Source: Vulcanimicrobiota bacterium (GTDB lineage: Bacteria > Vulcanimicrobiota > Vulcanimicrobiia > Eremiobacterales > Eremiobacteraceae). Taken from it: DNA of 64,000 nucleotides. The stretch's first letter is position 1. The number at the start of each line of letters is the position of its first letter. A program made the position numbers and the translations under genes. Shown one piece after another: positions 9,635 to 20,364 of this stretch. The stretch spans positions 1-64,000 of the forward strand of contig JABCYQ010000014.1 in NCBI GenBank assembly GCA_013290125.1. The letters run 5' to 3'. The notes beneath the pieces were generated by a model, which was not told where the DNA came from, did not search any database, and saw only the letters and a list, made by a program, of their open reading frames with translations.

Positions 9635-10567
9635 GTGTTCGAGATCCATAACTGCGCGCCGCAGTTCATACAGCAACTCATAAACGGCGTCGCGCTAGGT
9701 GGTTTGTACGCGCTCATCGCGCTCGGCTACACGATGGTGTATGGCATCATCGAGCTGATCAACTTCGCACACGGCGACGTCTATACGCTTGGATCGTTCA
9801 TCTCGCTGTCGATCTTGGGCCTCATCCCGCTCGCGACGATCTCCAACCCCACGGTGCTCGGCCTGATCGCTTTGGCCGTCATCATCTTGGCGGCGCTGCT
9901 CTGCGGCATCATCGGCGTGCTGATAGAACGCCTCGCGTACCGGCGCCTGCGCAACGCGCCGCGCCTTGCGCCGCTGATCACAGCCATCGGCGTGTCGTTG
10001 ATCCTCGAGAACATCATGCAGATCTGGAAGGGCAACTCTGAGGTCTCGTTTCCTCAGTTCCTTCCCGATCACTGGCACCAGATCGGCGGGGTTCGATTCG
10101 ACGATCGCTCGCTGATGGTGGTCGTCGTCAGCCTCGTCTGCATGATCCTGCTCAACTTCTTCGTCTTCCACACGAAGCTCGGCAAAGCGATGCGCGCGAC
10201 GGCGCAGGACCGCGACGCAGCGCAATTGATGGGCATCAACGTCAACTCCACGATTGCCTGGACTTTTTTCATCGGTTCCGCGCTCGCGGGCGTGGCGGGC
10301 TTCATCTCAGGCATGTACTACGGCACGACGTTCTTCTTGAACGGCTATCAGGCCGGTCTGAAGGCGTTCACGGCGGCGGTGCTCGGCGGCATCGGCAATA
10401 TCACGGGCGCCATGCTCGGCGGTTTTGTCATCGGCATCATCGAGACGATGACGTCGGGCTGCATCTCCGATCAGTGGTCGGAAGTCGCGGTGTTCGCCAT
10501 TCTTATCTTGACGCTGGTCTTCCGGCCAAGCGGTCTGCTCGGCCAGCAGCTGCCGGAGAAAGTGTGA
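9635..10567 (+). CDS. livH: LivH-type branched-chain amino acid permease
   Basis: 310 aa, GTG start. An integral membrane protein with about eight hydrophobic segments and the family signature GGLYALIALGYTMVYGIIELINFAHGD at its N terminus (quoted parts: GYTMVYGII, NFAHGD). A cytoplasmic EAA-like loop, GKAMRATAQDRDAAQLMGIN, contacts the LivG/LivF ATPases. Lies between the binding protein and LivM. Confidence 0.92.
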   Translation: MFEIHNCAPQFIQQLINGVALGGLYALIALGYTMVYGIIELINFAHGDVYTLGSFISLSILGLIPLATISNPTVLGLIALAVIILAALLCGIIGVLIERLAYRRLRNAPRLAPLITAIGVSLILENIMQIWKGNSEVSFPQFLPDHWHQIGGVRFDDRSLMVVVVSLVCMILLNFFVFHTKLGKAMRATAQDRDAAQLMGINVNSTIAWTFFIGSALAGVAGFISGMYYGTTFFLNGYQAGLKAFTAAVLGGIGNITGAMLGGFVIGIIETMTSGCISDQWSEVAVFAILILTLVFRPSGLLGQQLPEKV

Positions 10568-10574
10568 GGAGCGC

Positions 10575-11678
10575 GTGCTGAACAGCCTCGTCACGTGGCT
10601 GCCGTTCGGCCTTTCGCGCTACACTGGCCGGCAGGTGCTGTTCGGCGGATTCATCGTCCTCGCACTCCTGCTGCTGCCGATCGTCGACTCGAACAGCTCG
10701 CACGTCTCCGCGGTCGCCGACGCCGGTTATATCCTGCTGTTGGCTTTTGGCTTGAACATCATCGTCGGCTACACCGGGCTTCTCGCTCTCGGTTTCGCCG
10801 CGTTCTTCGCGATCGGCGCCTACACGTACGCATTCGTCGCATCACCGCAGCTCGCAAGCCCTGCGCACCCGGATGGCTACCACGTCTCGTTCTGGCTCAT
10901 GCTGCTCGTCAGCGCAGCCGTGGCCGCCGCGTTCGGCGTGATCCTCGGGGCGCCGACCTTGCGGCTGCGCGGCGACTATCTCGCAATCGTCACGCTCGGG
11001 TTCGGCGAGATCGTGCCCCAGCTGTTCCAGAATCTCGACAAGTGGACCGGCGGCCCGGATGGCATCGCGGCCGTGGACCAGCCCGTGCTCTTCAACTACC
11101 ACTTCGGCTTCAATCCGACGCCGTACTATTATCTCTACATGGCCGTGATCTGCATCTGCCTGGTCTTGCTCGCGAACTTGCGCAACTCCAGGCTCGGACG
11201 CGCGTGGATGGCGATCCGCGAAGACGAGCTCGCGGCCGAGCACATGGGCATCAATACGATGACGGCCAAACTTCTCGCGTTTTCGATGGGCGCGGCGTTT
11301 GCGGGTGTGGCCGGAGTCATCTATGCGGCGAAACTGAGCACGATCAGCCCAAGCGGTTTTGACTTCAACATGTCGATCATGATCCTGGCGGCGATCGTGC
11401 TCGGCGGCATGGGCAATCTTTCCGGCGTGTTGCTCGGCGGGTCCATCGTCGCGATGCTCAACTTCCTGATCCTGCCACAGGCGTCGAACTGGGCGCACGC
11501 GATCGGCGCGAGCGTTCACAGCACATTTCTCATGAACGTGGACCTCACGCAATATCGCTTCATGTTATACGGCATCATCCTCGTGCTGGTCATGTTGTTC
11601 AGACCGGAGGGCCTGATCCCGAGCGCTACCGTTCGCGCAGAACTGCGCGAAAGCATGAAGAGCCCGGAGGTGGCGTGA
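10575..11678 (+). CDS. livM: LivM-type branched-chain amino acid permease
   Basis: 367 aa, GTG start with GAGGA just upstream. About ten hydrophobic segments. The family signature GFGEIVPQLFQNLDKWTGG and the ATPase-contact loop RLGRAWMAIREDELAAEHMG are present. It pairs with LivH to form the transmembrane channel. Its TGA overlaps the livG ATG as ATGA. Confidence 0.92.
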   Translation: MLNSLVTWLPFGLSRYTGRQVLFGGFIVLALLLLPIVDSNSSHVSAVADAGYILLLAFGLNIIVGYTGLLALGFAAFFAIGAYTYAFVASPQLASPAHPDGYHVSFWLMLLVSAAVAAAFGVILGAPTLRLRGDYLAIVTLGFGEIVPQLFQNLDKWTGGPDGIAAVDQPVLFNYHFGFNPTPYYYLYMAVICICLVLLANLRNSRLGRAWMAIREDELAAEHMGINTMTAKLLAFSMGAAFAGVAGVIYAAKLSTISPSGFDFNMSIMILAAIVLGGMGNLSGVLLGGSIVAMLNFLILPQASNWAHAIGASVHSTFLMNVDLTQYRFMLYGIILVLVMLFRPEGLIPSATVRAELRESMKSPEVA

Positions 11679-12439
11679 TGGCGCTCCTCTCGCTGCAGGG
11701 CGTGACCAAATCGTTCGGTGGACTGACGGCGGTCAAAAACCTAACGTTCGACGTCGAAGCCGGCGCGATCATAAGCCTGATCGGTCCGAACGGCGCGGGC
11801 AAATCCACCGTCTTCAATCTCATCACGGGCATCTACATGCCGTCCTCTGGTTCGATCGTCTTCGACGAGCACGCCATCGAGGGCCTGAAACCGCACTCAG
11901 TCGCAGCGCGCGGCATCTTGCGCACGTTCCAGAACATCCGCCTCTTCTCGCACATGACCGTGCTCGAGAACGTGCTCGTCGGCCGGCATGCGCGCATGCG
12001 CTCGGCCGCGTGGGACTGCGCGTTCCGCACGCCGTTCGCGCAAAAAGAGGAGCGCAGTTCCGACGCAGCCGCGATGGAACTGCTCGAGTGGATCGGCCTA
12101 TCGCGCTTCGCGACGGAGTGGGCGCGCAATCTTCCGTACGGCATGCAGCGGCGGCTCGAGATCGCGCGCGCGCTGGCGTCCGAACCGAAGCTGCTGCTGC
12201 TCGATGAACCGGCGGCGGGCACGAATCCGGCCGAGAAAATCGGTCTCATGAAGCTTGTGCAGTCGATCCGCGACCGCGGCGTGACCGTACTGCTCATCGA
12301 ACACGACATGAAACTGGTCATGGGCATCTCGGACTACGTCCACGTCCTCGACTACGGTGAAGAGATCGCGCACGGCAAACCCGATGCCGTGCGCCACGAT
12401 CAGCGCGTCATCGAAGCTTATCTCGGAAAAGGCGCATGA
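11678..12439 (+). CDS. livG: LivG-type ABC transporter ATPase
   Basis: 253 aa. Walker A GPNGAGKST, the LivG form of the signature motif (PYGMQRRLEIARALA), Walker B LLLLDEPAAG and the switch His (LIEHDM) are all intact. The ATG at 11678 is preferred over the GTG one codon earlier because GGAGG lies 7 nt before it and it overlaps the livM stop. Hydrolyses ATP to drive amino-acid uptake. Confidence 0.93.
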   Translation: MALLSLQGVTKSFGGLTAVKNLTFDVEAGAIISLIGPNGAGKSTVFNLITGIYMPSSGSIVFDEHAIEGLKPHSVAARGILRTFQNIRLFSHMTVLENVLVGRHARMRSAAWDCAFRTPFAQKEERSSDAAAMELLEWIGLSRFATEWARNLPYGMQRRLEIARALASEPKLLLLDEPAAGTNPAEKIGLMKLVQSIRDRGVTVLLIEHDMKLVMGISDYVHVLDYGEEIAHGKPDAVRHDQRVIEAYLGKGA

Positions 12440-13155
12440 CGCAGCCCGTTCTCGCGTTGTCCGGCATCGAGACCTACTACGGGCGCATCCAGGCTTTGCG
12501 CGGCGTGACCCTCGATGTCAACGAAGGCGAGATCGTCGCGCTCATCGGCGCGAACGGAGCCGGCAAGACCACGACGCTGCGCACGATTTCCGGACTCCTG
12601 AAGCCTGCGCGCGGAAGCGTTCGTTTCCGGGGCGAGGATCTGGCGCCGTATTCAGCCGATGCGATCGTGCGCATGGGCGTCGTGCACTCGCCCGAGGGAC
12701 GGCGAATTTTTCCGCGCATGAGCGTGCGCGAGAATCTCGAGCTTGGGGCGTTCGCGCGCACCGACGGATCTGGGATCAAGAACGATCTCGCGGAAGTGCT
12801 CGCGCTCTTCCCGCGATTGAGCGAACGCATGACGCAGCGCGGCGGTACGCTCTCCGGGGGCGAGCAGCAGATGCTCGCGATCGCGCGCGCGCTCATGTCG
12901 CAGCCGAAGGTCCTGTTGCTCGACGAACCGTCGATGGGTTTGTCGCCGATCCTCGTGGACACGATCTTCTCGGTGATCCGCGACATCAACAAACGCGGCG
13001 TGACGATCCTGCTCATCGAACAGAACGCGCGCAAGGCGCTGCAAGTGGCGTCGCGCGGCTACGTGCTCGAAACGGGTGCGATCGTGAAGGCCGGCACGGC
13101 TAACGCGTTGCTCAACGACGACGACGTGCGAAAGGCATACCTCGGCGAAGACTGA
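12436..13155 (+). CDS. livF: LivF-type ABC transporter ATPase
   Basis: 239 aa. Walker A GANGAGKTT, signature LSGGEQQMLAIARAL, Walker B LLLDEPSMGL and switch LIEQNAR are present. The start overlaps the livG stop by 4 bp. Last gene of the liv operon; a REP-like hairpin lies 31 bp after its stop. Confidence 0.93.
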   Translation: MTQPVLALSGIETYYGRIQALRGVTLDVNEGEIVALIGANGAGKTTTLRTISGLLKPARGSVRFRGEDLAPYSADAIVRMGVVHSPEGRRIFPRMSVRENLELGAFARTDGSGIKNDLAEVLALFPRLSERMTQRGGTLSGGEQQMLAIARALMSQPKVLLLDEPSMGLSPILVDTIFSVIRDINKRGVTILLIEQNARKALQVASRGYVLETGAIVKAGTANALLNDDDVRKAYLGED

Positions 13156-14171: not shown

Positions 14172-15161
14172 CTATGGTGGGGTCAGCTGCATGATGAAGT
14201 CGGTCTGACTGCCGCCGTACGAGATCCAGACCGCATGCGTGGACGGATCCACGGCCACCGTGTGCGCGTGTTCGGGCACGATCACATCCGGCAGCGCGAC
14301 GAGTCCAGTCGTCGTCTCCTGGACGACAGAGAGCAAGCCGGTACCGCTCGCGCAGTACACGCGCTGCGTTCCCGGATCGAATGCGATTTGATCCACACGC
14401 GGCGCGATCGGCGCCTGGCCCATGATCGCTCCCGACTTCATATCCATCATCACGAGTATCCCGTTTGATCCTGCGATGAACATGCGCGCCGCCGCCGAGT
14501 CGATCGCCTGGCCGTGCGGCGTGGTCGCCGGCAGCGTCGACCACGTCGCAGTCACGGCATTGGTCGCCGGATCGATGACGAGCACCGCATTCGTTGAGAC
14601 GATGTTCTGATACAGCTTGTCGGTGCCCGGATCGTAGTTCAGATACTCGGGATCTTGCGGAATCGTGATCACCGGTCCAGGTTTGTTCGTGCGGCCGCTC
14701 ACGGTGAAGATACGAGTCCCTGCGTCTTCGTCGACGTAGACCGTGTTGTTCTTCGGATCGAAAGCCATCGCGTCGCCCGGCCCGGGCGTCAACGGTCTGT
14801 CGTTGAGCACGAGATTGTCGCGGTCCACGACAGCCACCACGCCTTCGACGGTGCTGACGAAATATTTGCGGTCCTTGACGTCGATCGCGATGCCGTGGGC
14901 CGATCCGACGTTCACCTGACGCAGCAACGCGCCGGTGTCGAGGTTGAAGACGTCCATCGACTTCGATCCCGTGTGCGCGACGAGCAGATAGCGCCGCGCG
15001 GCGTCCACGTACATATAGTCGAACGACCCAGGCGAGCGAGGCACGGCGATCGCGGGCTTGGCGATGAGCGGAGCGGGCGAAGCGTCTGCACGAGCCGTCT
15101 GCGGTGCGGCTGCGAAAACGAAGCAAAGCGCGATTGGGGCAATGAGCCAGTGACGACGCAT
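14172..15161 (-). CDS. Secreted YncE/YVTN-type beta-propeller protein
   Basis: 329 aa with an N-terminal signal peptide (cleavage after about ADA, residue 27). The rest is seven-bladed propeller sequence with repeats of the type VDAARRYLLVAH, IDVKDRKYFVS, FDPKNNTVYV, YDPGTDKLYQN and FDPGTQRVYCASG. Such proteins scaffold binding in the periplasm or bind DNA or cofactors; no catalytic residues are evident. Starts 10 nt after the methyltransferase gene and is the last member of a six-gene minus-strand run. Confidence 0.82.
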   Translation of the reverse strand: MRRHWLIAPIALCFVFAAAPQTARADASPAPLIAKPAIAVPRSPGSFDYMYVDAARRYLLVAHTGSKSMDVFNLDTGALLRQVNVGSAHGIAIDVKDRKYFVSTVEGVVAVVDRDNLVLNDRPLTPGPGDAMAFDPKNNTVYVDEDAGTRIFTVSGRTNKPGPVITIPQDPEYLNYDPGTDKLYQNIVSTNAVLVIDPATNAVTATWSTLPATTPHGQAIDSAAARMFIAGSNGILVMMDMKSGAIMGQAPIAPRVDQIAFDPGTQRVYCASGTGLLSVVQETTTGLVALPDVIVPEHAHTVAVDPSTHAVWISYGGSQTDFIMQLTPP

Positions 15162-15171
15162 GTGGTCGCTC

Positions 15172-16008
15172 CTATCCGGTTTTGACGCCGACGCCGATGC
15201 CGTCGCCGACGGGCAAGATCACGGCGCGCAGCGATGGGTGTGACAAGAAACGCGCGTTAAACCTTCTGATGCCGACGGTGGCGGGATCATCGTCGTTCGA
15301 AGGAACGGTGGAGGCGCGGTGGCTCCAAACCAGATTGTCTGCTACGACAAGGCCGCCCGTCCTGACATTCGGCAGCACCGCTTCCAAGTAGTCCGCATAT
15401 TCGGTCTTCACCGCGTCGATAAAGACAATATCGAAGCGGCGGTCGCCGAGATCCGCGATGACGGCGAGCGCAGGCCGTTCCACTATCTCGATCCGCTCCG
15501 CAACGCCGGCCTCGGCGAATAGCGCACGCGCGGTTACCGCTCTGCCGTTATCCGGTTCGACCGTGACGATCGAGGCGCCGTCAAACGCCTGCGCCATCCA
15601 CAGAGCCGAGTAGCCGTTCGCGGTCCCCAATTCGAGGATGTCCCTCGGCTTCGCCAGCGACACGAGGAGAGCGAGCAGCCTCGCGCTCGCGACATCTAAC
15701 AGCGGGATCGAGTCGCGCTCGCATTCCACTTTTGTCCGCTGGAGCAGCGGAGACAATTTCGAACTCAGCGATTCGATGTAGGCGTCATCGCGCGCGACGT
15801 CGCTTTGTACGGGTTCCGACGCGGCGGCGATCGCAGGGCGCAGAGCGGCCATGAGTTCGGCGGCGCGGCGCGCGCCGCTAGCAAGCGTCGCGAACGTCGC
15901 GCGATCGTCGTCCGCCTTCGACCGCCTCTCGCCGAGTTCGGCGCCGACCAGAATGCCGCCCACCGCGTTCGACAGATCGTGGAAATTTTCGCGAGGTGTC
16001 CGCGTCAC
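15172..16008 (-). CDS. Histidine-kinase-like DHp domain fused to class I O-methyltransferase
   Basis: 278 aa from a GTG that overlaps the oxidoreductase stop (GTGA). Residues about 8-60 resemble a histidine-kinase dimerisation domain: NFHDLSNAVGGILVGAELG has the HDxxN phospho-acceptor pattern, and RRAAELMAALRP fits its second helix. No ATP-binding kinase domain follows. Residues about 80-278 are a caffeoyl-CoA/catechol-type O-methyltransferase: ILELGTANGYSALWMA (SAM motif I), VTVEPD, FDIVFIDAVKTEYADY and VVADNLVW. It may be a methyltransferase dimerised or regulated through a phosphorylatable His. Substrate unknown. Confidence 0.82.
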   Translation of the reverse strand: MTRTPRENFHDLSNAVGGILVGAELGERRSKADDDRATFATLASGARRAAELMAALRPAIAAASEPVQSDVARDDAYIESLSSKLSPLLQRTKVECERDSIPLLDVASARLLALLVSLAKPRDILELGTANGYSALWMAQAFDGASIVTVEPDNGRAVTARALFAEAGVAERIEIVERPALAVIADLGDRRFDIVFIDAVKTEYADYLEAVLPNVRTGGLVVADNLVWSHRASTVPSNDDDPATVGIRRFNARFLSHPSLRAVILPVGDGIGVGVKTG

Positions 16009-17084
16009 GAACCACGCCCCTTTCGTATGACGATGCGCACGCTGCGACGCGCGCGTGCGGATCGCCGCGCGGCGTCGAGGACGGTCTGCACGCGCAGGCC
16101 ATCCAAGAATGTCGGCGCGCTCGAGCTCCCGCCGCGCATCGCGGCGATCGCTTCGCCGAGAAACGTGTAGAACGCGGGTACGAGGCGATGCGAGCCGGGC
16201 GGGAATTTCTTGCGCGTACGCGCAGGCGCAGTAACCGGAACCGCGCCCTGGCCCTCTCGAATGCCGAAGAGCTGATTGCCGTCGATCCGCAGTACGCCTT
16301 TCGTGCCGCTGACGATGATGGTGGATGTAGCTGCCGCCGCCGTCGCGCATAGCTCGATCGACGAGATGACGCCGCTCGCGTGGACTAGACGGACGCTCGC
16401 ATTGTCGTCCGCGTCGACGGTTCCAGCAGCCCCCTGCCGCCGCGGCTGCTGTTTGACTTTCGTCGCGAGCGTCGCGTCGACTTCGCGGACTTCGCCCGCA
16501 ATCGTCCGGCAGAAATCAATGGCATGCGAGCCGATCGCGCCCAAGATGCCGCCGCCGCATTTCGCCTGCGATTGCCAGCCAAAACGGTAGTCCCCGCCGG
16601 CCGCCATCCAACTCGAGATCTCGACAAACGCGATACGTTCGACCTCGCCAAGCCACCCGTCGTCGACCAATTCGCGCATTCGTAGCCGCTCCGGCAAAAA
16701 GCGGAACTCATGATCGATCAGCCCGACGCGCTTCGCTTTGTGCGCCGCCTCCACCAGCGCGCGCGCCTCACGCTCGTTCATCGCGAACGGTTTTTCGCAG
16801 ATGACGTGCTTGCCCGCGCGCAGAGCGGCGAGCGCGATCGGCGCGTGCAGGTGCGGCGGCGTCACGATGCTGACGAGTTGCACGTCGTCGCGCGCGATCG
16901 CCTTGCGATAGTCGTCGGTGAAGAACGGAACGCCGAACGTCTGCGCGGTCAAGCGCGCTCTATCCAACGACTGCGAAGCCACGGCCACGAGTTTCGTCTC
17001 GGGGTGCGCGGCGATCGCCGGCATCTGACATCGCGCGCCGAAACCCGTTCCGATCACGGCGACTCCGATCTGATCAGTCGGCAT
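16005..17084 (-). CDS. Gfo/Idh/MocA-family NAD(P)-dependent oxidoreductase
   Basis: 359 aa. Rossmann start VAVIGTGFGARCQMP, then the family motif CEKPFAMNEREARALVEAAH with the catalytic-region Lys, and the C-terminal alpha/beta sheet domain (GGILGAIGSHAIDFCR carries the usual His). These enzymes oxidise or reduce sugars, inositol or related polyols. Located between PolB (12 nt upstream) and the methyltransferase (4-bp overlap), which may act on related compounds. Confidence 0.9.
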   Translation of the reverse strand: MPTDQIGVAVIGTGFGARCQMPAIAAHPETKLVAVASQSLDRARLTAQTFGVPFFTDDYRKAIARDDVQLVSIVTPPHLHAPIALAALRAGKHVICEKPFAMNEREARALVEAAHKAKRVGLIDHEFRFLPERLRMRELVDDGWLGEVERIAFVEISSWMAAGGDYRFGWQSQAKCGGGILGAIGSHAIDFCRTIAGEVREVDATLATKVKQQPRRQGAAGTVDADDNASVRLVHASGVISSIELCATAAAATSTIIVSGTKGVLRIDGNQLFGIREGQGAVPVTAPARTRKKFPPGSHRLVPAFYTFLGEAIAAMRGGSSSAPTFLDGLRVQTVLDAARRSARARRSVRIVIRKGRGS

Positions 17085-17096
17085 CTGTCCTCATTC

Positions 17097-19211
17097 TCAT
17101 AGCAATGTGAGTTGGTCCGGATCTTCCACCGCCGCGCGGCGCGCCTCGTCCGGCACGAGGTCGCCGAACCGACCGACGAAATCCGCGATGCGCTTGAGGA
17201 GATGTCCGCGATCCTCGTCGCCGGCGTACTCCTCCAACAACGCAAGTTCGCCGCCTTCGCGCCGATAGACGTTCACTTTGTCGCCCACGACGACGCCCTT
17301 GTCGAGCAGCGCCTGCGCCAGGCGGCGATTACCCGGCGCGCTGAACGTCTTCTGCGTCACCGATTCGCGCCGCGCGAACGCGAGTGGTTCGAACCCGCCG
17401 GTTCGGACGCGCTCGACCGCCTCGCGTACGAGCGGAGCCACATCGGCTTGACGGCCTTGGATGAGTGCAGACGCTATCGCACGCAACATCGTGGAGCCGA
17501 ACGGCTCATCGCGGTTCGACTTGAGCGCCGAGCCGCGTAATACTATTTCGCCGCCGGCCCGCTCGAGCGCGTACGTCTTCGCCTTGAGCGAGAGCATCGC
17601 CGGATAACGCTCCTCCACGACGAGGTTGAGGCCTTCGCCGATCGCAGCATTCGCGCGCGCGACGATTCCGACCGGATCGCCTCCTGAGGGCGGCACGAAG
17701 TACGCGCCATCGGTATCTGCTTCGATGACCAGACATTCTTGCGCGCGCAGCTCGGCCACGATCTGTTCGAGCACCGCGCGCCCGGCTTCCGTGATGGCGC
17801 CGGCGGCGGTCGCGTCGTTGAAATGCAGACCGTTGGTCCCGAGGAATCCATAAAACGAGTTGATCAGTATTTTGAAGGCGTTCTGCAATCCGTCGGCGGC
17901 GAGGTCGTCGCGGCCCTCCGCGCGGGCGCGTTCCGCGATGCGCTTCGCCTCGATGCGCCGCAGACGCAACGCCGTGAGCAACGGAAGGAAGACGTCGAGG
18001 TCATCGTCTTGCGGTTTAATGCCGCGCGAGATCATGATGGACGGATAGAGACTCTCGACGTCGCACTTGACGACGTTTCGGAAGAGCCCGGTCTCGAACG
18101 CGACGGTGAATCCGCCCGCCACCGGACCGACGGAGCGCGGACGCGGGATCGAGTGGCGCGCATGGAGATACGCGCGGACCATCAACCGCTCGATGCGGCT
18201 GCCGATTCCGACCCATGCCAAGCCCTGCAGCGACTCGGGCACGAACTGAGCCTGGTAGAACTCGTTCGGCGTGACGAGATTTGAAAGCCGTTCGGCGTCG
18301 CGCGCGTCGTCCAGACAGTAGGCCTTGAGCTTGGCTCGTTCGGCCGGATCCGCCCAGAGGCGCCGCATCTTGGACGCGTCGACCATCGCACGATCTACGA
18401 CGCCGATGCCGAGATGTCGCACGATCGACTTGAGTTTGTAGTTCGGCAGGCGGCGACCGACGTCCCAACGCAGCGCGCCGAAGAACGTGTCGTTGACTTG
18501 CCGGCCGTGAATGCGGTAGTACTTGACCAGCATGCCGTTCTGGCCGGAACGCCGGATCGAATCGTCGCGCTGCAGCGGCGTGCGTCCGTCGCGGCCGAGC
18601 AGAAGCGGAACACCGGCGCGCCGAGCGCGCTCTTCGAGATACCAGAGATCGAAATTGAAGATGTTATGGCCTTCGACGATGTCCGGATCGCGTTCCCGGA
18701 CGATGCGCACGAACTCGGCGATGAGCGCGCCTTCATTCTCGAACTCGTCGAGCCCGAGGACGCGTTCAAAACCCGCGTTGTCGCGAACGCCGATGAGGCA
18801 GATCTCGGCACCATCCCTGTGCGGCACCACGTCGAGCGTCTCAAGATCGAACTGGAGTCGGCGAAGGTCGGAGAAGAGCAGGCCCTTGTAGAACGTCTCA
18901 CCGCTCGCGACTAAATGCGCCGTGATCGGATCGAGGTAGACGAGCCGTTGGTCCGCTGCGAGATTGGCTGCGATGCTCGCGATGCGGGTAGCCTCTGCGC
19001 CGATCAGAAGATGGCGCATCGGGTGGCGTCCGGAAAGCTCGATAGATCCGGCCAGCGACCGCCGCGCCACGAGCCACGCCTGCAGCGGCACGTCGACCCG
19101 TTCCACTCGATCGCCGACGCGTCGATAGGTCCGTGCTATCCCCGCTCCGGCATCCGGTTCGACGGCCACGATTCCTTGGGTCGCGCCTGCGCCGGCGAGT
19201 ATCCCTTCCAT
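17097..19211 (-). CDS. B-family DNA polymerase with 3'-5' exonuclease
   Basis: 704 aa from the ATG at 19211; a GTG at 19220 is also possible. Exonuclease motifs are present: LQFDLETLDV (Exo I), EGHNIFNFDLWYLEE (Exo II) and AYCLDDARDAERL (Exo III). Polymerase motifs are intact: A, DVESLYPSIMIS; B, NAFKILINSFYGFLGT; C, VIEADTDGAYF. About the size of archaeal-type replicative or repair PolB, without an intein. In bacteria such enzymes mostly act in repair or lesion bypass. Its neighbours are not replication genes. Only 82 bp separate it from the secreted-protein gene upstream. Confidence 0.93.
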   Translation of the reverse strand: MEGILAGAGATQGIVAVEPDAGAGIARTYRRVGDRVERVDVPLQAWLVARRSLAGSIELSGRHPMRHLLIGAEATRIASIAANLAADQRLVYLDPITAHLVASGETFYKGLLFSDLRRLQFDLETLDVVPHRDGAEICLIGVRDNAGFERVLGLDEFENEGALIAEFVRIVRERDPDIVEGHNIFNFDLWYLEERARRAGVPLLLGRDGRTPLQRDDSIRRSGQNGMLVKYYRIHGRQVNDTFFGALRWDVGRRLPNYKLKSIVRHLGIGVVDRAMVDASKMRRLWADPAERAKLKAYCLDDARDAERLSNLVTPNEFYQAQFVPESLQGLAWVGIGSRIERLMVRAYLHARHSIPRPRSVGPVAGGFTVAFETGLFRNVVKCDVESLYPSIMISRGIKPQDDDLDVFLPLLTALRLRRIEAKRIAERARAEGRDDLAADGLQNAFKILINSFYGFLGTNGLHFNDATAAGAITEAGRAVLEQIVAELRAQECLVIEADTDGAYFVPPSGGDPVGIVARANAAIGEGLNLVVEERYPAMLSLKAKTYALERAGGEIVLRGSALKSNRDEPFGSTMLRAIASALIQGRQADVAPLVREAVERVRTGGFEPLAFARRESVTQKTFSAPGNRRLAQALLDKGVVVGDKVNVYRREGGELALLEEYAGDEDRGHLLKRIADFVGRFGDLVPDEARRAAVEDPDQLTLL

Positions 19212-19293
19212 TGTGTACACTAGCCCGGGCCTTCCCTCGCGTCGCTTCGCCGTCCCTCTCGCGGGCTTTCGAACACGAGGCCGCTCGAGCGCG

Positions 19294-20364
19294 CTAGGAC
19301 TGCGTGGGTGTTGGGGCCGGTGGCGGCGATGCGATGGGTTGATCGCTGGACAGGCCGATCGGAAGCGGTGCGAGGGATTCACCCGGCGAGGGTGTCACGG
19401 GCGCGTAGGGCGTGGGCGTCGCGCCCGCGCTGCCGCTTATCACGCCGCTCGGCATCGCAGCCGGGTGGAGCACAGGTACTGGCGATCCTGGCGAATAGAC
19501 GTTTGCAGCGTTGGCGTGCGCGCCCATTTGGTTTCCTGAAATGCCGATGCCGGGCGAAATTCCGGGGACCGGCGGCGTGCCGGCGACGAGGCTGACGAGT
19601 TTCACGATCCAATGCGCTGTGAGCGAATACGATCCGTGCTTGCCGTGCGCGTCGACCGCGTTGCCGTTGCCGGCTAGCTCGAGATCGGTGCCGACCAACA
19701 AGTGCCTGGCCGGTTGAAAATACGCTTCGCCGGTCAGGACGGCAGCGCCGATCAGCCGTACCGCGCCGAACTTAGAGAGCTGAGGCTGGCCCGCAACGGC
19801 CGCAACGCCGGTCAACACTGCTTGCAGCATCGTATCGGCAAGCGCGCCCGACTTGAAGTTCGCTTTGCCGTGGATCTGCGCGCGCGCATGTGCGAAAGGC
19901 AGCATGAGATCGCCCGAACCGTGCCACTCGGTGCCGATATCGAGCGACGACGCGTCCAGACCGTTCAGAACGAGCGACGCCGGCGACAATCCGTCGAACG
20001 CCGTATTCGCGGCGCTGCCGTCGGCCGCGATGACAGGGCTGTCGCTCGGCGCAGCCGCTGCAGAGCTCTGCCGCAGTGCGCCGGCCGTCGCGATCGCAAG
20101 AACCGGTGCGCCGGCGTCCGTGAATCCCTCTACGGTGAGCGCCAAGCTGCTCGCATCGTGAAGCAGCGACGTCTGCGCAACGATAGTTCCGTCGGCGCGC
20201 GCGAAGCGCACGGTGAGCTTGGCGTCGCGCGCGATCGCATAGACCTGCTGCTCGCCCGTACCGTACGCGTGACCCGGCAGAAAAATCTGTCCGCCCGCCG
20301 CGGCGATGGCAGCCGTGAGGATGAATCCGAGTGCCGCAACGGGTGCGGCTTCGCTCGCTCTCAC
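19294..20364 (-). CDS. Secreted protein of unknown function with Pro/Thr-rich tail
   Basis: 356 aa, GTG start. An N-terminal hydrophobic segment (about 10-28) looks like a signal peptide or anchor. The middle is Ala/Gly/Ser-rich with predicted beta strands, and the last 60 residues are Pro/Thr/Ser-rich (PTPTQS end). No enzyme motif seen. It starts 3 nt after the stop of another secreted protein with a similar Thr/Pro tail, so the two probably work together, perhaps at the cell envelope. Confidence 0.7.
   Translation of the reverse strand: MRASEAAPVAALGFILTAAIAAAGGQIFLPGHAYGTGEQQVYAIARDAKLTVRFARADGTIVAQTSLLHDASSLALTVEGFTDAGAPVLAIATAGALRQSSAAAAPSDSPVIAADGSAANTAFDGLSPASLVLNGLDASSLDIGTEWHGSGDLMLPFAHARAQIHGKANFKSGALADTMLQAVLTGVAAVAGQPQLSKFGAVRLIGAAVLTGEAYFQPARHLLVGTDLELAGNGNAVDAHGKHGSYSLTAHWIVKLVSLVAGTPPVPGISPGIGISGNQMGAHANAANVYSPGSPVPVLHPAAMPSGVISGSAGATPTPYAPVTPSPGESLAPLPIGLSSDQPIASPPPAPTPTQS

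Follow-up and report, generated by a model that had tools for sequence, protein, structure and literature searches.

The locus described here raises the question of why an O-methyltransferase of the bacterial family Eremiobacteraceae (phylum Vulcanimicrobiota) carries, ahead of its catalytic domain, a segment that resembles the phospho-acceptor hairpin of sensor histidine kinases, and whether this segment could place the enzyme under the control of two-component signaling. The fusion gene lies in a cluster on the reverse strand of the window (the whole stretch of DNA that was analyzed, 64,000 nucleotides), the relevant features of which are the following:

15172..16008, reverse strand: fusion gene encoding a HisKA-like N-terminal extension and an O-methyltransferase, 278 amino acids
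15826..16005, reverse strand: HisKA (DHp)-like extension, residues 2-61, with the phospho-acceptor-type His10, the acidic Asp11 and Asn14
15967..15981, reverse strand: H-box core, H10-D11-L12-S13-N14
15190..15765, reverse strand: Methyltransf_3 domain (class I, SAM- and metal-dependent O-methyltransferase), residues 82-273
16005..17084, reverse strand: GFO/IDH/MocA oxidoreductase, upstream and translationally coupled
14172..15161, reverse strand: secreted YncE-like beta-propeller, downstream
17097..19382, reverse strand: family B DNA polymerase, the constant upstream gene of the cluster

The extension consists of approximately 62 residues ahead of the methyltransferase, with the N-terminal sequence MTRTPRENFHDLSNAVGGILVGAELGERRSK, and is translated and subject to purifying selection. 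Compared with its counterpart in the sister species (G001), it shows 90% amino acid identity and a dN/dS of 0.067, with 30 of the 38 base differences falling in third codon positions; the dN/dS of the methyltransferase part in the same comparison is 0.19. The GTG start codon (16008-16006) has AAAGGGG ahead of it and shares bases, as GTGA, with the stop codon that ends the oxidoreductase gene upstream. An in-frame ATG at residue 53, together with short homologues that begin near residue 73, could be taken to mean that the enzyme starts at this internal methionine and that the extension is never translated. This is, however, hardly credible given the low dN/dS and the recurrence in relatives of a start codon at the same position with a purine-rich stretch upstream of it; the GTGA overlap with the preceding gene also argues against it.

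The methyltransferase is a complete, ordinary cation-dependent enzyme of the SafC/TrmR/COMT-like kind that is present throughout the class. The match to PF01596 spans residues 82-273 (E-value 6.4e-32; 110.9 bits against a cut-off of 22), and the fold matches include SafC (5lhm), TrmR (5zw3), SynOMT (3cbg) and COMT structures. It shares the whole catalytic domain with SafC, SynOMT, TrmR and the catechol O-methyltransferases, including the SAM motif and the FID-x-x-K and DN pattern of the metal site, and differs from all of them by the added N-terminal HisKA-like hairpin. Residues D198, K201, D224 and N225, which by analogy with COMT we take to be the metal ligands, are invariant in the methyltransferases of the family. 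This is the sole clear PF01596 member in the genome, where one further match is marginal. A TrmR role, i.e., formation of mo5U in tRNA by methylation of 5-hydroxyuridine, is unlikely because TrhP (PF01136) and TrhO (PF17773), which make the substrate of TrmR, have no match in this 95%-complete genome, while the control genomes gave matches. The substrate is probably a small molecule, with a catechol-like compound as the default guess.

Within the extension, residues 10-14 read HDLSN. Next come AVGGILVGAELGERR, a short run of polar residues and a second segment that looks helical, RATFATLASGARRAAELMAAL. The Pfam HisKA model (PF00512; cut-off 26.9 bits) matches five of the seven family members that bear the histidine, each in the correct register and each below the cut-off (24.6 bits for the best relative and 12.4 bits for the window protein); in the extensions that lack the histidine the match is lost. 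A considerably stronger comparison can be made between profiles. A profile of the seven His-bearing extensions was compared, using hhalign, with eight aligned HisKA domains from kinases of the same genome, the latter having been chosen among open reading frames with a HATPase_c match and not by similarity to the extensions. The two align over 59 columns, His on His, with a score of 44.5 and a probability of 95.9%, whereas none of 200 column shuffles scored above 16.0 and reversal of the profile, a control that retains the helical periodicity, gave 9.5. A search of 117 genomes of the class with the extension profile retrieved, besides the fusion proteins, matches located mostly in open reading frames of approximately 300-900 amino acids. 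In 27 of the 29 non-self matches that were fetched and aligned, a kinase-type H-E-L-R motif falls on the histidine of the extension, and six of the class-wide matches, inspected by eye, resemble sensor kinases in which HisKA is followed by N- and G-box motifs. Pairwise identity with a kinase reaches 21 of 45 positions, for the extension of G004, with similarity that runs from before the H-box to beyond it; an example of such identity is MSDAVRDAGHELANQLSTVLALADLERRRAERG against MRQFVADAGHELRTPLTIVLGYIDLLRRRADEG. The kinase set behind these comparisons was partly preselected with the profile. A search of the PDB with the extension profile yielded nothing useful.

Judged by its sequence, the extension clearly derives from the DHp hairpin (HisKA) of a sensor kinase: the profile match, the shuffling and reversal controls, the in-register matches across the class and the pairwise identities all lead to this conclusion. 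The competing view, that an amphipathic helical extension has converged on HisKA and displays HDxxN by chance, can point to the single-sequence scores below the Pfam gathering cut-off and to the length of only some 60 residues, but it conflicts with the shuffled and reversed profile controls, with the class-wide matches in register and with identity that extends outside the H-box, and we regard it as very improbable. Chance resemblance can be set aside because the profile score stands well apart from its controls, because the class-wide matches align on the histidine and because the extension is translated and conserved. Thus, the N-terminal HDxxN motif and two-helix HisKA pattern claimed in a preliminary description of this DNA are borne out as sequence features (HDLSN at residues 10-14; hhalign score of 44.5 against 16.0 or less for the shuffles), and so is the claim that a full class I methyltransferase follows in place of an ATPase domain, given the PF01596 match (E-value 6.4e-32) and no HATPase_c or other ATPase-like domain after the extension anywhere in the protein. 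An HMM match to HisKA, which the same description proposed to look for, was obtained, although every individual sequence stays below the Pfam cut-off.

The extension is present in 9 of the 14 genomes of the family, and seven of these nine, including the window genome, retain the phospho-acceptor histidine. The H-boxes are HDLSN (G000, G001), HELNN (G002), HELAN (G004, G011), HDVNG (G003) and HDLNG (G009), whereas the remaining two extensions, IDLER (G007) and RDLER (G010), are degenerate and represent natural His-minus variants. Three genomes (G005, G006, G012) encode a short enzyme without the extension, one (G008) has only a distant relative of the enzyme, and one (G013, 72% complete) gave no match. 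The histidine is among the eight invariant columns of the seven His-bearing extensions, even though identity to most relatives is only 32-41%. All seven have an acidic residue (D or E) at H+1; position H+4 is N in five and G in two, and is Arg in both His-less relatives. The proline that follows in HisKA at H+5 is lost, with A, V or Q in its place. The expectation that the histidine would be conserved among orthologues thus holds for the seven proteins with a recognizable H-box but fails for two, which have I or R at this position, and for those that lack the extension altogether. Elsewhere in the class and phylum, where 149 genomes were searched and 118 of them have the enzyme, nothing comparable matched the extension region. 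In G005 and G006 the gene of the short enzyme has the same four-base overlap with the oxidoreductase gene that the long one shows in the window, so that the extension appears to have been cleanly gained or lost at the 5' end of the gene; a tree of the methyltransferase domain did not separate loss from original absence in G005, G006 and G012. A plasmid search returned no record that covers 80% of the protein.

How might a transplanted DHp hairpin act on this enzyme? In the full-length structural model, one helix covers residues 5-24 and a second, at 33-81, extends into the methyltransferase (pLDDT of the extension 38-64, i.e., low), while the extension folded alone, without an alignment, comes out as one long, uninformative helix. 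The hairpin may pair with that of a second subunit to form a four-helix bundle, and the second helix of the hairpin, if the low-confidence model is taken as a guide, would run on into the methyltransferase. Such a bundle could be docked by the receiver domain of a response regulator, or be reached in trans by the ATPase domain of a kinase; either partner could phosphorylate or dephosphorylate the histidine, and two-component signaling would in this way tune the activity or the location of the methyltransferase. Self-phosphorylation by the usual route is not expected because the H+5 proline is gone and the ATPase domain is absent, so that the phosphate would have to arrive in trans, as it does in ChpT, which is a dimeric DHp protein and lacks autokinase activity (PMC3433190). 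In HisKA proteins, the acidic residue at H+1 is required for kinase activity and T or N at H+4 for phosphatase activity (PMC3510030), and in the phosphotransfer protein Ypd1 a large or charged residue at H+4 nearly abolishes acceptance of the phosphate from the receiver partner (PMC6341664). Retention or loss of the H-box seems to concern the motif as a whole, given that the His-less relatives have Arg, a charged residue, at H+4, and this pattern fits phosphotransfer or receiver docking better than it fits a pure scaffold.

On this basis, the extension can be put forward as a putative dimerizing module to which a response regulator docks and with which it exchanges phosphate in trans, an assignment to which we give slightly less than an even chance. 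Nearly as likely is that dimerization is all that has remained. The HisKA-descended segment would then be no more than a hairpin for dimerization or scaffolding, or a helix that stabilizes the enzyme, its histidine having no part in phosphotransfer, and this is a serious possibility, if one to be held tentatively: two extension-bearing relatives lack the histidine (IDLER and RDLER), the relatives without the extension retain an apparently intact enzyme, and no partner kinase or response regulator is seen in the cluster. A scaffold, however, has no need for a conserved histidine with its adjacent acid in seven extensions that are often only 32-41% identical to one another, and the extensions from which the histidine is missing no longer match Pfam HisKA. 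The direction of action could also be the opposite one, with the extension acting on a response regulator as a DHp-type phosphatase or a phosphate sink that ties the output of the regulator to the methyltransferase. Five of the seven His-bearing members have at H+4 the Asn that HisKA proteins need for phosphatase activity (PMC3510030), but the other two have Gly at this position and the gene has no orphan regulator linked to it, so we consider this improbable.

If phosphate exchange by the dimerizing module is nevertheless what the histidine was retained for, the fusion suggests that two-component signaling could reach the O-methyltransferase directly. Two-component outputs normally pass through the receiver domains of response regulators. 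The stronger version of the proposal, in which a metabolic O-methyltransferase is switched by phosphorylation of the transplanted kinase histidine, the putative output passing through that histidine and not through a receiver, must be considered rather doubtful. A DHp hairpin transferred to an unrelated enzyme, with its histidine and acid retained and its ATPase half lost, would provide a compact case of a part of a kinase reused as a regulatory module; His-plus, His-minus and extension-free relatives, all within a single family, offer ready-made natural comparisons.

The fusion combines two known parts in a new way and, among the genomes of this phylum that were searched, is found in one family; within the literature consulted, no fusion of HisKA with an O-methyltransferase was retrieved. 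With the HisKA/DHp domains of sensor kinases (PF00512) the extension shares the register of the phospho-acceptor histidine, the adjacent acid and, along 59 columns, the pattern of the two helices, but it lies below the cut-off of that family and is fused to an enzyme, and the protein as a whole differs from sensor histidine kinases in the absence of HATPase_c, of a sensor and of the H+5 proline. Phosphotransferases of the ChpT type likewise combine a HisKA-like hairpin and a phospho-acceptor-type histidine with no autokinase activity to be expected of their own; ChpT, however, keeps a degenerate ATPase-fold domain (PMC3433190), whereas the second domain of the fusion is a methyltransferase. 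Membership in the ChpT family, for which the preliminary description had proposed an HMM search, and in the Spo0B family was rejected because neither Pfam family gives a match.

Across the family the genes keep one order, with the family B polymerase first, then the oxidoreductase where present, the methyltransferase and the beta-propeller, the last being the constant downstream neighbor of the methyltransferase. The neighbors named in the preliminary description, an oxidoreductase and a beta-propeller, are indeed there, as a GFO/IDH/MocA protein upstream and a YncE-like protein downstream. The oxidoreductase is present at the locus in G000, G001, G002, G005, G006 and G012, and G003, G004, G007, G009, G010 and G011 lack it cleanly at the corresponding junction. 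A link between the oxidoreductase and the extension was rejected, as the two vary independently and the six loci without the oxidoreductase bear the extension, either intact or degenerate. As for the family B polymerase (17097-19382, reverse strand), its nearest solved relatives are archaeal enzymes of the Thermococcales type (E-value 1.7e-32, compared with 9e-16 for E. coli Pol II). Beside the cluster, at 9635-13155 on the forward strand, are ABC transporter genes of the branched-chain amino acid type that encode two permeases and two ATPases, and this adjacency is conserved in several relatives.
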